Below are positions 1,901 to 6,987 of a DNA stretch of 64,000 nt, one piece after another. Source of the stretch: Flavobacteriales bacterium (lineage in GTDB: Bacteria > Bacteroidota > Bacteroidia > Flavobacteriales_D > Crocinitomicaceae); contig JADFAL010000018.1 in the NCBI GenBank assembly GCA_015665275.1, positions 1 through 64,000 on the forward strand. Direction: 5' to 3'. A model generated the notes under the pieces. It did not search any database and was not told where the DNA came from. It saw nothing but the letters and a program-made list of their open reading frames with translations. The translations under genes were made by a program, and so were the position numbers. Position 1 is the stretch's first letter. Each line of letters begins with the position of its first letter.

Positions 1901-2653
1901 ATGTTGAATCGCCTATTTCGCAATAAAGAAACTCCATTACCACCAGCAGATTGGAGCGTACTCAAGGCGGACATGCATTCTCACTTAATTCCAGGAATCG
2001 ACGACGGATCCCAAAACATGGATCAAACCATTGCCATGCTGGCAAAATTCGAATCGCTCGGATATCAGAAGATTGTGACTACGCCGCACATCATGAGCGA
2101 TTACTTCAAGAATACACCAGAAATCATTTTGGGTGGACTCAAAAACGTTCAGGAAACGGCGCAAAAGCTCGGACTTAAGATTCAAATTGAAGCCGCAGCG
2201 GAATACTATTTTGACGACGCTTTCATTAAGTGGCTGCAGAATAAAGAGGAACTTTTAACCTTTGGCGATCGATTTCTACTTTTCGAATTTTCTTTCCATG
2301 AGCCACCAGCTCAAGCCGACGCAATGGTTTTCGAAATGATTACACAGAAGTACCAGCCCATTCTAGCACACTTCGAAAGATATACGTACTACCTCGGATC
2401 CTTGGATAGAGCAAGGGAATTGCGCGAACGTGGAGTGAATATTCAGGTAAATATCAATTCCCTCACAGGACATTATGGTCCAGCGATCAAGAAGCAAGCA
2501 GAATTACTCGTCGATGAAAAACTCATCGATTTCCTGGGTAGTGATTGCCATCGCATCGAACACTTGATGAAAATTGAGCAAGCAGCAACACTGCCCTACG
2601 TGCACAAAGCACTGGAACTTCCGTTGAAAAATGCTTCCTTAATCGCCTCGTAG
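1901..2653 (+). CDS. CpsB/YwqE-type tyrosine-protein phosphatase (PHP fold)
   Basis: Metal-dependent protein-tyrosine phosphatase of the PHP family; relatives dephosphorylate the BY-kinase that controls polysaccharide chain export. At 250 residues it has the expected size. Metal ligands are seen in DMHSHLIPGIDDGS (residues 24-37), TPH (61-63) and the C-terminal GSDCHR (213-218). There is no signal peptide, so it acts in the cytoplasm. It closes a three-gene polysaccharide operon. The cognate Wzc-like tyrosine kinase is not in the window and may lie upstream of base 1. Family assignment is firm; the target is inferred. Confidence 0.88.
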   Translation: MLNRLFRNKETPLPPADWSVLKADMHSHLIPGIDDGSQNMDQTIAMLAKFESLGYQKIVTTPHIMSDYFKNTPEIILGGLKNVQETAQKLGLKIQIEAAAEYYFDDAFIKWLQNKEELLTFGDRFLLFEFSFHEPPAQADAMVFEMITQKYQPILAHFERYTYYLGSLDRARELRERGVNIQVNINSLTGHYGPAIKKQAELLVDEKLIDFLGSDCHRIEHLMKIEQAATLPYVHKALELPLKNASLIAS

Positions 2654-2867: not shown

Positions 2868-4403
2868 ATGAACGCGTTATTGTTAACCACTCTTGTGGTG
2901 TTAGGATTGGCAAGTATTTTATTGCTGTGGAAGAAGGATAAGAGGTTAGTAGGGATGTTCAATGCATTGTTTGCTGTTACGCTGATGCAATGGGCGGCCA
3001 CGTTATTCAACAACGAAGGGGCAATGGCGCTTCATGTGCTGTCAGGCGTATTGGTCCTTGGATACCTAATTGCACAATTTGTACCTAAGAAGGAAGCAAT
3101 TGGAGCAATCAGTAGTACTGTACTGGTATTAGCGGCGTTCTTTATCGCTGGAAAAGGGGAAATGATCATTAACGAAGGAACAACGGCTGCAGAGACAAAA
3201 TTCATCGTTGCCGGTGTTTTGATGGGGTCGCTAGTGCCATTCTTAGTACGTTTGAAACTTAATTTTCTTTCCAAATGGGTTCCAGCATTATTGCCCAAGG
3301 CGTGGTCCGTTGCTGTGTACCCTTTGCTAGCAGGTCTCGGTTTTTTAATCGCATCTCTAGGAAGTCCAATCTATGGGCCAATGTTGGTAGGAGCAGCTTT
3401 TTTAATCAATTCGTTTTTCGATAACAAACGCAGTGCAAATACTGGAATTTCTGTCTATGCGTTGGCCAGTATGCCGCTTCTAATGATTGGGGAAGAGGTG
3501 AATCCCTCTCTTGTGAATGCAGATGTTATCGGTGGATTGTTAATGGGGGCATTTGCAGTGGTTTTACTCAATAAGTTGTGGTCAGGAGAAAAAAGCATCC
3601 TATTAACTGTAGTGGCTTACGGAATTATTTTCGGGACCATTTTGGGAATTACAAATGCAGGAGGAACCTACGAGCAACTCGGAGGATTCGATGCTTTTAT
3701 AGCGATTCTCGTTGGTGCTGCACTATCGAACGCAATCAAAGGGAAGTCATATCAAGGAGTATCATTATTGGCGCCACTATTTGCGCTAGGATTGTTTGTT
3801 CCAGCTCTTTTAGTAAATGAGGAAGAGAAGGCTGAAAAGAAAGAAATTATCACAATGGATGTTTCAGGGACGGATGATAGCGGAGAGCCAGTTCAAGGTC
3901 CAACTGTGTTGCCTATAACGGATTTGTCAGGGAATTATTCAATAAAAGCGGACGAATCTGTGGTGCAGTTCGAACTGGGTAAAGAAGGCTCGAGAACCAA
4001 AGGACAATTCAAAAAGGTTTCTGGATCATTTTCAATTTCCGAAGATTTATCAAAAGCAAGCGTCAACGTAATCATGGATATGAAAGATTTTACCACCTTC
4101 AATGGCATGCGCGACAAGAGTCTTCGAGGGGAAGATTACTTTAGTACGGACCGTTATCCGAAGATGAAATTCAAAGGAACCGGGTTTACGGACAAAGGAA
4201 ATGACTTGTACGAAGTAGCTGGTATTTTTACCATGTTAGGCAAATCGAAGCCTGTTACGGTTAAGATGCAACGCGTTGAGTTGGGGGATCGCATCGTATT
4301 AATTGGTTCTGGATCTTTGGACCGAACTGAATTCGGAATGTCGCCAAATGCGAACGAAGGAAACGTTGTAGATTTTAACTATCAAGTCGATCTTCAGAAG
4401 TAA
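2868..4403 (+). CDS. Multi-pass membrane protein fused to C-terminal YceI-like domain
   Basis: Protein of 511 residues. Residues 1 to about 320 form roughly ten to twelve hydrophobic segments separated by very short loops, with no family I recognise. A linker of about 25 charged and polar residues follows. Residues 353-511 then form a YceI-like lipocalin-fold domain (start LSGNYSIKADESVVQF; later LRGEDYFSTDRYPKMKFKGT and a C-terminal LDRTEFGMSPN). YceI domains bind isoprenoid or other lipids and are usually secreted alone, so a fusion to a membrane body is unusual. ATG 2868 is preferred because the promoter -7 box covers the upstream TTG. The 3' end overlaps the convergent DUF2279 gene by 10 bases. 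Lipid handling is inferred from the domain only. Confidence 0.8.
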   Translation: MNALLLTTLVVLGLASILLLWKKDKRLVGMFNALFAVTLMQWAATLFNNEGAMALHVLSGVLVLGYLIAQFVPKKEAIGAISSTVLVLAAFFIAGKGEMIINEGTTAAETKFIVAGVLMGSLVPFLVRLKLNFLSKWVPALLPKAWSVAVYPLLAGLGFLIASLGSPIYGPMLVGAAFLINSFFDNKRSANTGISVYALASMPLLMIGEEVNPSLVNADVIGGLLMGAFAVVLLNKLWSGEKSILLTVVAYGIIFGTILGITNAGGTYEQLGGFDAFIAILVGAALSNAIKGKSYQGVSLLAPLFALGLFVPALLVNEEEKAEKKEIITMDVSGTDDSGEPVQGPTVLPITDLSGNYSIKADESVVQFELGKEGSRTKGQFKKVSGSFSISEDLSKASVNVIMDMKDFTTFNGMRDKSLRGEDYFSTDRYPKMKFKGTGFTDKGNDLYEVAGIFTMLGKSKPVTVKMQRVELGDRIVLIGSGSLDRTEFGMSPNANEGNVVDFNYQVDLQK

Positions 4404-5326
4404 AACGGACTTCCTACCAATTTACCGTCTCGTAGCATCACCGTTGGGAAAGGGATCTTGAGGTAATTGAGTTGCTTCACTATTGCCTTTAACCAAGGGC
4501 GTTTGATGGGAATCTGACTAAAATCAATATCCAATGAAAATAGGAATTCACGCTGCTCATTGTAGGTGATTCCAGTAGATGCATCAAGATATGTCGGTTC
4601 TGATCCTACCAGTTTTTCATGAGCGCTATATCCAAAGGAGAAACAGGCCCACTTCGGAATCTTACTGTTTTTAAGGAAACGTGCCGGACTGAAACTCAGC
4701 CAATACGTCTGTCCATTGTAATCTTTAAGAAGCGACTCGGTAAAGGAACTTCCCAAGACTTCCGGTCGAATTTCTGCAAAGGGCGAGGGGCTGTATGAAA
4801 ACTTGGGTAGAATGCGTTGCTCTTTCCAGAGAAGTTCTTGTGCTGTATATAAAGAGGAACCAACCATGTTAGAAGCGAAGTCTGCCCAAGACCATCCCCA
4901 TTCTCCGGAAAATCCATCAAGAACCTCCAGTGTTGTTTGATAACCCATTGAAACACCAAAGCCAATCCAGGTGGAAGTTTTCTGATTCACCCCAGACCAC
5001 TGATACAGGTCACTCGTCAATCCATTCAGTTGATACGCAGTATAAACGTGACCGATCTTGTCCATTTGCAGCCAATTGCGAGAATCGTCAAAAAACTGAA
5101 AGGATCCATTAGATCCATCAGCATACCAAACCGTTTGAAGGGCAATCATGGAACCTGCCCAAACACTCCCCACAGATGAACTTACTCCAATAATTCGGTT
5201 CTTGTTTGGTGATGTTGCTTTCTCAAAGAATCCGTATTCTCTTCTCGGTGATATCGAAATACTATCCTGCGCGGTGGCAGTCATAGAGAAAGTGCTTAAA
5301 AGTAGTACCGTCAGCAATTTGAGCAT
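4394..5326 (-). CDS. DUF2279 family envelope protein
   Basis: Protein of 310 residues with an N-terminal signal peptide (MLKLLTVLLLSTFSMTATAQ), so exported. The core MDKIGHVYTAYQ motif and the following GFSGEWGWSWADFASN segment are typical of DUF2279, whose relatives are predicted outer-membrane or periplasmic proteins of unknown role. The C-terminal half is rich in alternating hydrophobic residues and aromatic ends, compatible with beta strands, and it ends in Phe. ATG at 5326 is chosen over an in-frame TTG 6 bases upstream because the signal peptide begins cleanly there. It is convergent with the YceI fusion gene. Function unknown. Confidence 0.8.
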   Translation of the reverse strand: MLKLLTVLLLSTFSMTATAQDSISISPRREYGFFEKATSPNKNRIIGVSSSVGSVWAGSMIALQTVWYADGSNGSFQFFDDSRNWLQMDKIGHVYTAYQLNGLTSDLYQWSGVNQKTSTWIGFGVSMGYQTTLEVLDGFSGEWGWSWADFASNMVGSSLYTAQELLWKEQRILPKFSYSPSPFAEIRPEVLGSSFTESLLKDYNGQTYWLSFSPARFLKNSKIPKWACFSFGYSAHEKLVGSEPTYLDASTGITYNEQREFLFSLDIDFSQIPIKRPWLKAIVKQLNYLKIPFPTVMLRDGKLVGSPFYF

Positions 5327-5408
5327 ATCCAAAATTACGTTAAATCAATAACTTACTTGAGAGGAACACGTATTTTTAGTGAGGCCATTTCTTTCTATGG
5401 AAATATGC

Positions 5409-6174: not shown

Positions 6175-6987
6175 ATGAAAGACTTTTTCAAGAAACTCGG
6201 AAATTTCATTTGGAGCAAAGCCTTCGGAATCAACTTCGCGGTATTGATTATTGTCTATCTGGGGTTGTATTTCGGACTACAAGCATGGCTGAAAAGCACT
6301 ACAAACCACGGAATTGAGGTAACGGTTCCTAACATGGTCGGTAAGAATTCCAATAATGCTAAGTCCATGTTAAGTGGCACTGAATTGGAATACGAAGTTC
6401 TAGATTCCATATACAAACCAGACGTGGTTGCAGGAACTATTTTGGCGCAAGACCCTAAAGCTACCTCCATGACAGGAGTGAAAGTAAAGAAAGGTCGCAG
6501 AATTCGATTGAGAGTTTCAAAGCGAACTATGCTGGTAGAAATGCCCAATTTGATTGATAAATCTCAACGGTTCGCTGAAGGCGTTCTTAGAAACCGTGAA
6601 TTTAGATATACGCTCGAATACAAACCAACCAAAGAAGCAGATGGCGCAGTGTTAGAGCAATGGTATAATGGTAAAAAGATAGAAGGAGGACAAAAAATTC
6701 CTATTGGTTCCAAAATAAAATTGATTGTTGGACGTAATGAAGTTGGGATTCTTCAGGATTTGCCAAACCTTTCTGGTATGAGTATCGTTCAGGCACAAAA
6801 GGAAGTGGAACGCATGATAAACATGGAGTTTCTACTCGGAGTTTGTCAGGGATGTGAAACACCGGAAGATTCATCTGCAGCAATTGTGTTTACACAATCG
6901 CCCGAATGGATTGAAGGAGGGACGGTAGAGTCTGGCGGTTCGATCGTAATTATGGCGCGAATGCCAGGTGAAGAGATCCCAGAATAA
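6175..6987 (+). CDS. PASTA domain protein, single-pass membrane anchor
   Basis: Protein of 270 residues with a short cytoplasmic N-terminus, one transmembrane segment at about residues 18-38, and three PASTA repeats at about 45-112, 115-188 and 192-262. Repeat marks are VPNMVGKN, MPNLIDKS and LPNLSGMS, each followed by a region ending in a basic or glycine turn. PASTA domains bind peptidoglycan fragments and are usually attached to Ser/Thr kinases or penicillin-binding proteins. Here there is no catalytic domain, the usual state in Bacteroidota. It sits between a LOG-family gene and a T9SS cargo gene. Likely a periplasmic cell-wall sensor or scaffold, by inference. Confidence 0.85.
   Translation: MKDFFKKLGNFIWSKAFGINFAVLIIVYLGLYFGLQAWLKSTTNHGIEVTVPNMVGKNSNNAKSMLSGTELEYEVLDSIYKPDVVAGTILAQDPKATSMTGVKVKKGRRIRLRVSKRTMLVEMPNLIDKSQRFAEGVLRNREFRYTLEYKPTKEADGAVLEQWYNGKKIEGGQKIPIGSKIKLIVGRNEVGILQDLPNLSGMSIVQAQKEVERMINMEFLLGVCQGCETPEDSSAAIVFTQSPEWIEGGTVESGGSIVIMARMPGEEIPE

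Follow-up and report, generated by a model that had tools for sequence, protein, structure and literature searches.

The stretch of DNA analysed here (the window, 64,000 nucleotides) carries a plus-strand gene for a 511-residue protein, in which a membrane core resembling that of membrane pyrophosphatases (mPPases) is joined through a linker to a YceI lipocalin domain. Upstream of this fusion gene lie a wecC-like gene, rfbB and CpsB, and its 3′ end meets an oppositely oriented open reading frame (ORF). The features are as follows:

1901–2653, plus strand: CpsB/CapC-like gene, the end of a sugar-nucleotide cluster, upstream of the fusion.
2868–4403, plus strand: whole fusion gene, mPPase-like membrane core, linker and YceI domain, 511 aa; an ORF with its start backed by relatives.
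2868–3815, plus strand: membrane domain, residues 1–316, 12 helices, putatively TM5–TM16 of mPPases by helix count (AlphaFold2, VIA-align).
2928–2945, plus strand: short basic connection between the TM5 and TM6 equivalents, residues 21–26; the TM5/TM6 catalytic motifs of mPPases are absent.
3294–3584, plus strand: TM10–TM13 equivalent, residues 143–239, with direct sequence-profile similarity to HppA.
3414–3428, plus strand: TM11/TM12 junction, residues 183–187; close by, 43 HppA columns (GP..DN motif included) align to gaps.
3684–3812, plus strand: TM15–TM16 equivalent, residues 273–315, directly after the invariant G272-G273, without GGAWDN or D..GDP.KD.
3816–3923, plus strand: linker, residues 317–352, acidic, poorly conserved and predicted to be periplasmic.
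3924–4400, plus strand: YceI lipocalin domain, residues 353–511 (Pfam stretch 357–507, 3936–4388).
4394–5332, minus strand: DUF2279/YfiM-like ORF, tail-to-tail with the fusion gene and overlapping its 3′ end by 10 bases.

Farther along, at 6175–6987 on the plus strand, lies a gene for a PASTA-domain protein with one N-terminal hydrophobic stretch by eye and no kinase domain in the Pfam scan.

Translation of the fusion gene starts at the ATG at 2868, which is common to near relatives. The only Pfam family above its cut-off in the 511-residue protein is YceI (PF04264), which covers residues 357–507 (E 1.2e-27; score 97.5 bits, cut-off 23.7); in NCBIfam the sole match is to a YceI equivalog model and scores under that model's cut-off. 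On the Kyte-Doolittle scale the protein shows 9 hydrophobic segments, on the GES scale 12. The sequence-only reading had described a multi-pass body with at least ten segments, a linker and a complete C-terminal YceI-like domain, and this layout holds, the segment count varying with the hydropathy scale and settling at 12 helices in the AlphaFold2 model. Residues 1–331 match no family at E ≤ 1 in the Pfam and NCBIfam libraries, and among the relatives no family in these libraries matches the membrane part in more than 2 of 60 members at E ≤ 0.1. The same reading had left the membrane part unrecognized, which remains true of the family libraries; by fold and profile, however, it is identifiable as a stripped-down membrane pyrophosphatase core.

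The AlphaFold2 model of the membrane part, built from an 18-row alignment, has a mean pLDDT of 81.5 and a pTM of 0.82 and places 12 membrane-type helices within residues 2–315, of which two are just 14 residues long, as against the 16 transmembrane helices of mPPases. In a Foldseek search of the PDB mPPases fill rows 1 to 11, with E-values that are weak (0.029 at best, probability 0.99). VIA-align, which only re-aligns Foldseek candidates, gave mPPases ranks 1 to 21 (21 entries; Z 14.3–20.2, rmsd 3.8–4.2, 303–316 residues aligned); helical bundles below about Z 13 may share just a common arrangement, and the mPPase matches exceed that value. The best match (Z 20.2 over 309 of 326 residues) covers Tm-PPase 172–726, a span that we infer by helix count to run from TM5 to TM16. 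mPPases have 16, occasionally 17, helices, with 5-6, 11-12 and 15-16 forming an inner ring and 1-4, 7-10 and 13-14 an outer ring (PMC12614893). TM1-4 have no counterpart in the model, and short turns connect the helices of each inner-ring pair. The full-length model, built from an overlapping alignment, again recovers mPPases, ranked after YceI structures; its match to the E. coli YceI structure 1y0g has a Foldseek E of 9.4e-10 and a target TM-score of 0.83.

Several other candidates for the membrane part were set aside. The best non-mPPase chain reaches Z 5.9, and the VIA-align rows at or below that value (an unnamed protein, CydDC, ammonia lyases, rhodopsins, complex I and others) represent helical-bundle background; TehA was rejected at a Foldseek E of 0.26 and a query TM-score of 0.21. 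The idea that the protein is itself an ancestor of the mPPase triplication was likewise rejected, the core comprising by helix count two whole four-helix units plus part of the first (units as given in PMC6882861). As a separate observation on the alignment, the TM9–TM10 connection is longer in L104, L112, L115, L116 and L136 (genera g25, g26 and g32), five of the 13 rows printed.

Neither PF03030 nor the NCBIfam mPPase models match at E ≤ 1 in the window protein and 18 members or at E ≤ 0.1 in 60 members; profile comparison reveals the kinship. With hhalign, the 60 members align to 19 HppA sequences at E 3.4e-6 (probability 87.7, score 53.3), columns 98–239 falling on HppA 334–536, and with 18 members the comparison gives probability 63 and E 6.9e-5. 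A control rerun with the same match columns scored 50.1 (E 9.6e-6), against 19.0 for the reversed profile and null maxima of 26.2 in 100 window shuffles and 23.5 in 100 reversed-block permutations (200 in all). The alignment spans TM10–TM13, where the 43 gapped HppA columns lie. A PDB sequence search with the deeper profile (A4, 60 rows) returned nine matches, all to plant vacuolar mPPase (E 0.0045 to 0.032, ~51 residues); the shallow profile (A2, 18 rows) found no mPPase in the same search, its four matches being to SID1 (three, E about 0.005) and ninjurin-2 (0.026), which were rejected.

Weak matches in more distant genomes point the same way. In a class sample of 395 genomes, 19 weak loci lie outside the family, 18 of which start at profile position 194/195 and hold the HppA catalytic motifs; the other, L061, has none. 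In a phylum sample of 395 genomes searched with A4, 94 non-self genomes gave matches, each of them with one that begins at 194/195, and the motifs are present in 29 of the 29 such loci checked; G364 has a second match elsewhere, at 267–328. Since the two samples share genomes, these results are not independent. A single HppA is encoded in the window's own genome, on a different contig, and no ORF with HppA motifs occurs in 58 fusion neighbourhoods. In a global HMM-HMM alignment TM5-9 and TM16 lack a convincing match. At the level of sequence, then, the similarity to HppA is clear but local, about TM9/10–TM13, and the assignment of TM5-9 and TM16 therefore rests on the predicted fold; taken together, the mPPase identity of the membrane part is well supported.

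Five hydrolytic-centre patterns (D..AD..GK.E, DN.GDN, GP..DN, GGAWDN and D..GDP.KD), which with their helix labels we take to be the mPPase catalytic motifs, are each found in 0 of 60 members versus 19 of 19 HppA sequences. The looser T.A..K motif is present in the membrane part of 6 of the 60; D...D...D is absent from every membrane part, although a search of the whole proteins finds it in 4 of 60. These 60-member counts omit L009, L020, L023, L046 and L047 (a near-copy of the window gene, two genes fetched twice and two contig-end fragments). The hydrolytic centre of mPPases is on the cytoplasmic side (PMC5150537). The cut in the 11-12 pair is seen in the alignment, and helix spacing suggests further cuts at 5-6 and 15-16. 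Because the catalytic motifs are lost, neither pyrophosphate (PPi) hydrolysis nor pumping is predicted. Thus the protein resembles HppA and its solved relatives (PF03030; Tm-PPase, Vr-PPase) in its predicted TM5–TM16 fold, its local profile and loop charges that fit their topology, and differs from them in lacking TM1-4, the catalytic motifs and a PF03030 match and in its added C-terminal YceI domain. We consider it very probable that the membrane part is mPPase-derived and non-catalytic.

The even-numbered helices of mPPases have cytoplasmic N-termini (PMC8657866), so the end of the TM16 equivalent should lie outside. The loop charges are consistent with this orientation. In the loops expected to be cytoplasmic, means of 0.9 to 2.5 K/R stand against 0.4 to 1.6 D/E, bases outnumbering acids in each, narrowly at loops 9-10 and 15-16. 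Acids exceed bases in outside loops 6-7, 8-9 and 12-13 and in the stretch after TM16 (7.1 versus 3.3 in the latter); outside loops 10-11 and 14-15 are near neutral. Because loop charges and mPPase topology agree, the YceI domain is predicted to be periplasmic, a placement that we regard as likely; a cytoplasmic YceI domain, which the sequence-only reading had named as counting against its own idea of a lipid-presenting membrane body, did not emerge from the topology prediction.

The fusion is conserved: the YceI domain is in the same reading frame in 64 of 65 ORF rows (63 distinct genes, two fetched twice), and the lone row without it, L046, is cut off by a contig end, which argues against a chance run-on. 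Fragments were left out of the alignments (L014 and L026 from A1 and A2, L023 from A2 only), L014 and L026 being outside the 65 ORF rows. Searched alone, the membrane part matches 20 of 59 other genomes of relatives, and each of the 20 belongs to the same genus, which has 33 genomes in this set; the nearest named match is a Fluviicola sp. MAG at 81% identity. Fluviicola is a genus of Crocinitomicaceae (Flavobacteriales), and the window's family is taken to be this one. Profile A2 matches 73 of 200 genomes of the family, the window's own included, in 11 of 24 genera sampled; it has no match in 10 of the 34 genomes of the same genus, some of which are 99% complete, and the gene is thus dispensable. 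Among 399 genomes of the order, A4 matches 85 genomes of the window's family and gives only weak matches (E 1.5e-5 or worse) in 14 genomes of other families, 11 at about 194–241 and three (G669, G736 and G753) only elsewhere; in G173 the match is split over two frames. Full-length relatives came to light in a single bacterial family, probably Crocinitomicaceae, at a depth of at most five scored candidates per genome, with incomplete species sampling and with genomes shared among the class, order and phylum samples, so that fusions outside the family may be missed.

Ten genomes chosen for carrying the fusion have exactly one fused copy each, plus 3 to 7 other YceI genes. In a YceI tree of 41 domains (15 fused rows selected within the family, plus 26 of the 40 stand-alone rows found), the 15 fused rows lie on one side of a branch with support 100/99; such a branch is compatible with other histories too, and some stand-alone rows are long branches. 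A single YceI clade is consistent with one origin, and one fusion event followed by vertical descent is the simplest reading. The fused domain is a complete lipocalin domain, as in the stand-alone YceI proteins of E. coli (1y0g) and T. thermophilus (TT1927b, 1wub) and in BcnA (5ixh); unlike these, it is tethered to a membrane core, and in the tree the 15 fused domains form a clade apart from the 26 stand-alone rows. Most solved YceI structures hold isoprenoids, for example ubiquinone-8 or octaprenyl phosphate (PMC9113575).

Based on these results, we think it reasonably probable that the protein is a non-catalytic, mPPase-derived and perhaps dimeric membrane platform that tethers a lipid-binding YceI domain, the chimera having probably been made once. 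We propose that a membrane pyrophosphatase, in the ancestor of a single family (probably Crocinitomicaceae), would have lost TM1-4 and the cytoplasmic-side catalytic segments of the inner-ring pairs 5-6, 11-12 and 15-16, and that the extracytoplasmic C-terminus of the remaining core would have been joined to a YceI lipocalin. The membrane part would then no longer hydrolyse pyrophosphate or pump; an mPPase-like homodimer would keep a pair of YceI barrels on the periplasmic side of the inner membrane. There the barrels could draw a long-chain isoprenoid out of the outer leaflet and then carry it or shield it; menaquinone and polyprenyl phosphate are guesses for this lipid. We infer the dimer, the ligand and the shuttle or shield role. 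A dimer is plausible because helices 10 and 13, helped by 12, form the mPPase dimer interface (PMC8657866, PMC5150537), and HppA similarity survives in TM10-13. The conservation of these helices gives a mixed hint, TM13 being well conserved (1.95 bits), TM10 fourth (1.73) and TM12 poor (1.57), behind TM11 (2.20) and TM15 (2.13) at the head. That the YceI-core protein presents lipid, as the sequence-only reading had imagined, is a tentative proposal; more doubtful still is its fuller form, a non-pump branch of the mPPase fold that serves as a dimeric isoprenoid loading platform, with the former ion path or a lateral groove delivering lipid to YceI.

A plainer account is that the mPPase-derived core just fixes YceI to the inner membrane and handles no lipid, which we judge somewhat unlikely. 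Mean pairwise identity is 21% for the membrane part versus 40% for YceI, and a scaffold or anchor therefore fits better than an enzyme. The helices also keep few polar positions: the commonest are K130 (42 of 60), D or E at 275 (38 of 60) and N65 (32 of 60), and no other polar residue type exceeds a third of the 60 members. So few conserved charges inside the helices speak more for holding or anchoring than for active lipid transport. On the other hand, a 12-helix core with conserved glycines (G223, G272 and G273 in 60 of 60, G170 in 58 of 60) has been kept across those 11 of 24 genera, and a single helix or a lipoprotein signal would be a cheaper membrane anchor than 12 helices.

The neighbouring genes raise another alternative, that the protein handles a lipid carrier for surface polysaccharide, serving the adjoining sugar cluster by picking up undecaprenyl (pyro)phosphate on the periplasmic side; we consider this distinctly unlikely. 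Homologous ORFs occur near the fusion in 35 (CpsB), 34 (rfbB) and 26 (wecC) of 58 loci, with a median position upstream on the same strand, and YceI structures can hold a polyprenyl phosphate (PMC9113575). However, genera g25, g26, g32, g33, g36 and g41 have no sugar genes within ~6 kb on each side (some contigs are shorter), the arrangement may be plain synteny, and a sub-threshold match to the polyprenyl-phosphate transporter PopT appears in one of 60 members (E 0.0048) and in none of the other 59. The DUF2279 ORF downstream of the fusion has a nearby homologue in 43 of 58 loci. Genera that lack the upstream sugar genes are among them, and some genera keep only DUF2279 among the neighbours. 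As a clue to function, the gene neighbours are a weak hint.

It could also be supposed that the core still conducts H+ or another solute without PPi. The equivalents of the inner-ring pairs 5-6, 11-12 and 15-16 (as numbered in PMC12614893) are present in the model, and position 29, where the TM6 equivalent begins, often carries a charge, of either sign (D 16, K 10, E 3 and R 1 of 60). Yet no single ionisable residue reaches a third of the members in the TM6, TM11, TM12 and TM16 equivalents when the two end residues of each helix are omitted, and the ion-gate residues of mPPases sit in helices 6 and 16 (PMC5150537); a channel or transporter thus seems improbable. Still less credible, and in our view very improbable, is an unrelated 12-helix protein made to look like an mPPase by AlphaFold2 and one chance motif: identity is only 12-14% and the sequence match lies mainly in TM10–TM13, but fold and profile agree on an mPPase, the shuffled and reversed controls fail, and the weak matches in the 395 phylum genomes point to HppA.

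The least probable reading, one to which we give hardly any credence, is a redox partner that re-reduces a YceI-held quinone as b561 is presumed to do in the LcoA-BcnA fusions: the domain order is the same as in the alphaproteobacterial lcoA-bcnA fusions (PMC9113575), but there is neither a b561 family match nor a conserved His. According to PMC9113575, YceI is fused to cytochrome b561 in most alphaproteobacteria examined, and b561 is presumed to reduce YceI-bound quinone, thereby quenching lipid peroxyl radicals; these b561-YceI fusions share with the present protein an N-terminal polytopic part, a linker instead of a signal peptide and a C-terminal tethered YceI. The membrane part here, in contrast, is mPPase-like. 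Pfam scans of the window protein, 18 members and 60 members found no cytochrome b561 family, and no His is conserved as a potential haem ligand, the best membrane column reaching 12 of 60 and the first 330 residues of the window protein containing one His. Cytochrome b561 was accordingly rejected as the membrane part, and the earlier reading is spared the second finding that it had said would count against it.

Each module is known by itself; no description was found of the stripped pump core or of its combination with YceI. In the open-licence PMC literature we found no description of YceI in Fluviicola nor, among the matches listed there, of an mPPase-YceI pairing or of a non-catalytic mPPase relative of this kind, and the only YceI-membrane fusion found described is that with cytochrome b561, from which the present fusion differs. 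One review holds that no known ion pump is homologous to mPPases (PMC9408878). A relative that retains the mPPase core without its active site offers a natural control for separating structural from catalytic parts of the fold, and it suggests that the fold has been reused for another task, perhaps to hold or hand over lipid. The work gives an identity to at least 60 proteins that are blank in Pfam and NCBIfam over about 60% of their length. YceI, for its part, gains a second membrane partner, unrelated to cytochrome b561, and the two partners can now be compared for what they have in common: tethering, quinone presentation or membrane protection. The window's genome also holds another YceI gene (L134:4822–5952, G000:C20), in which ~200 residues precede the YceI domain and match no Pfam family at E ≤ 0.1.
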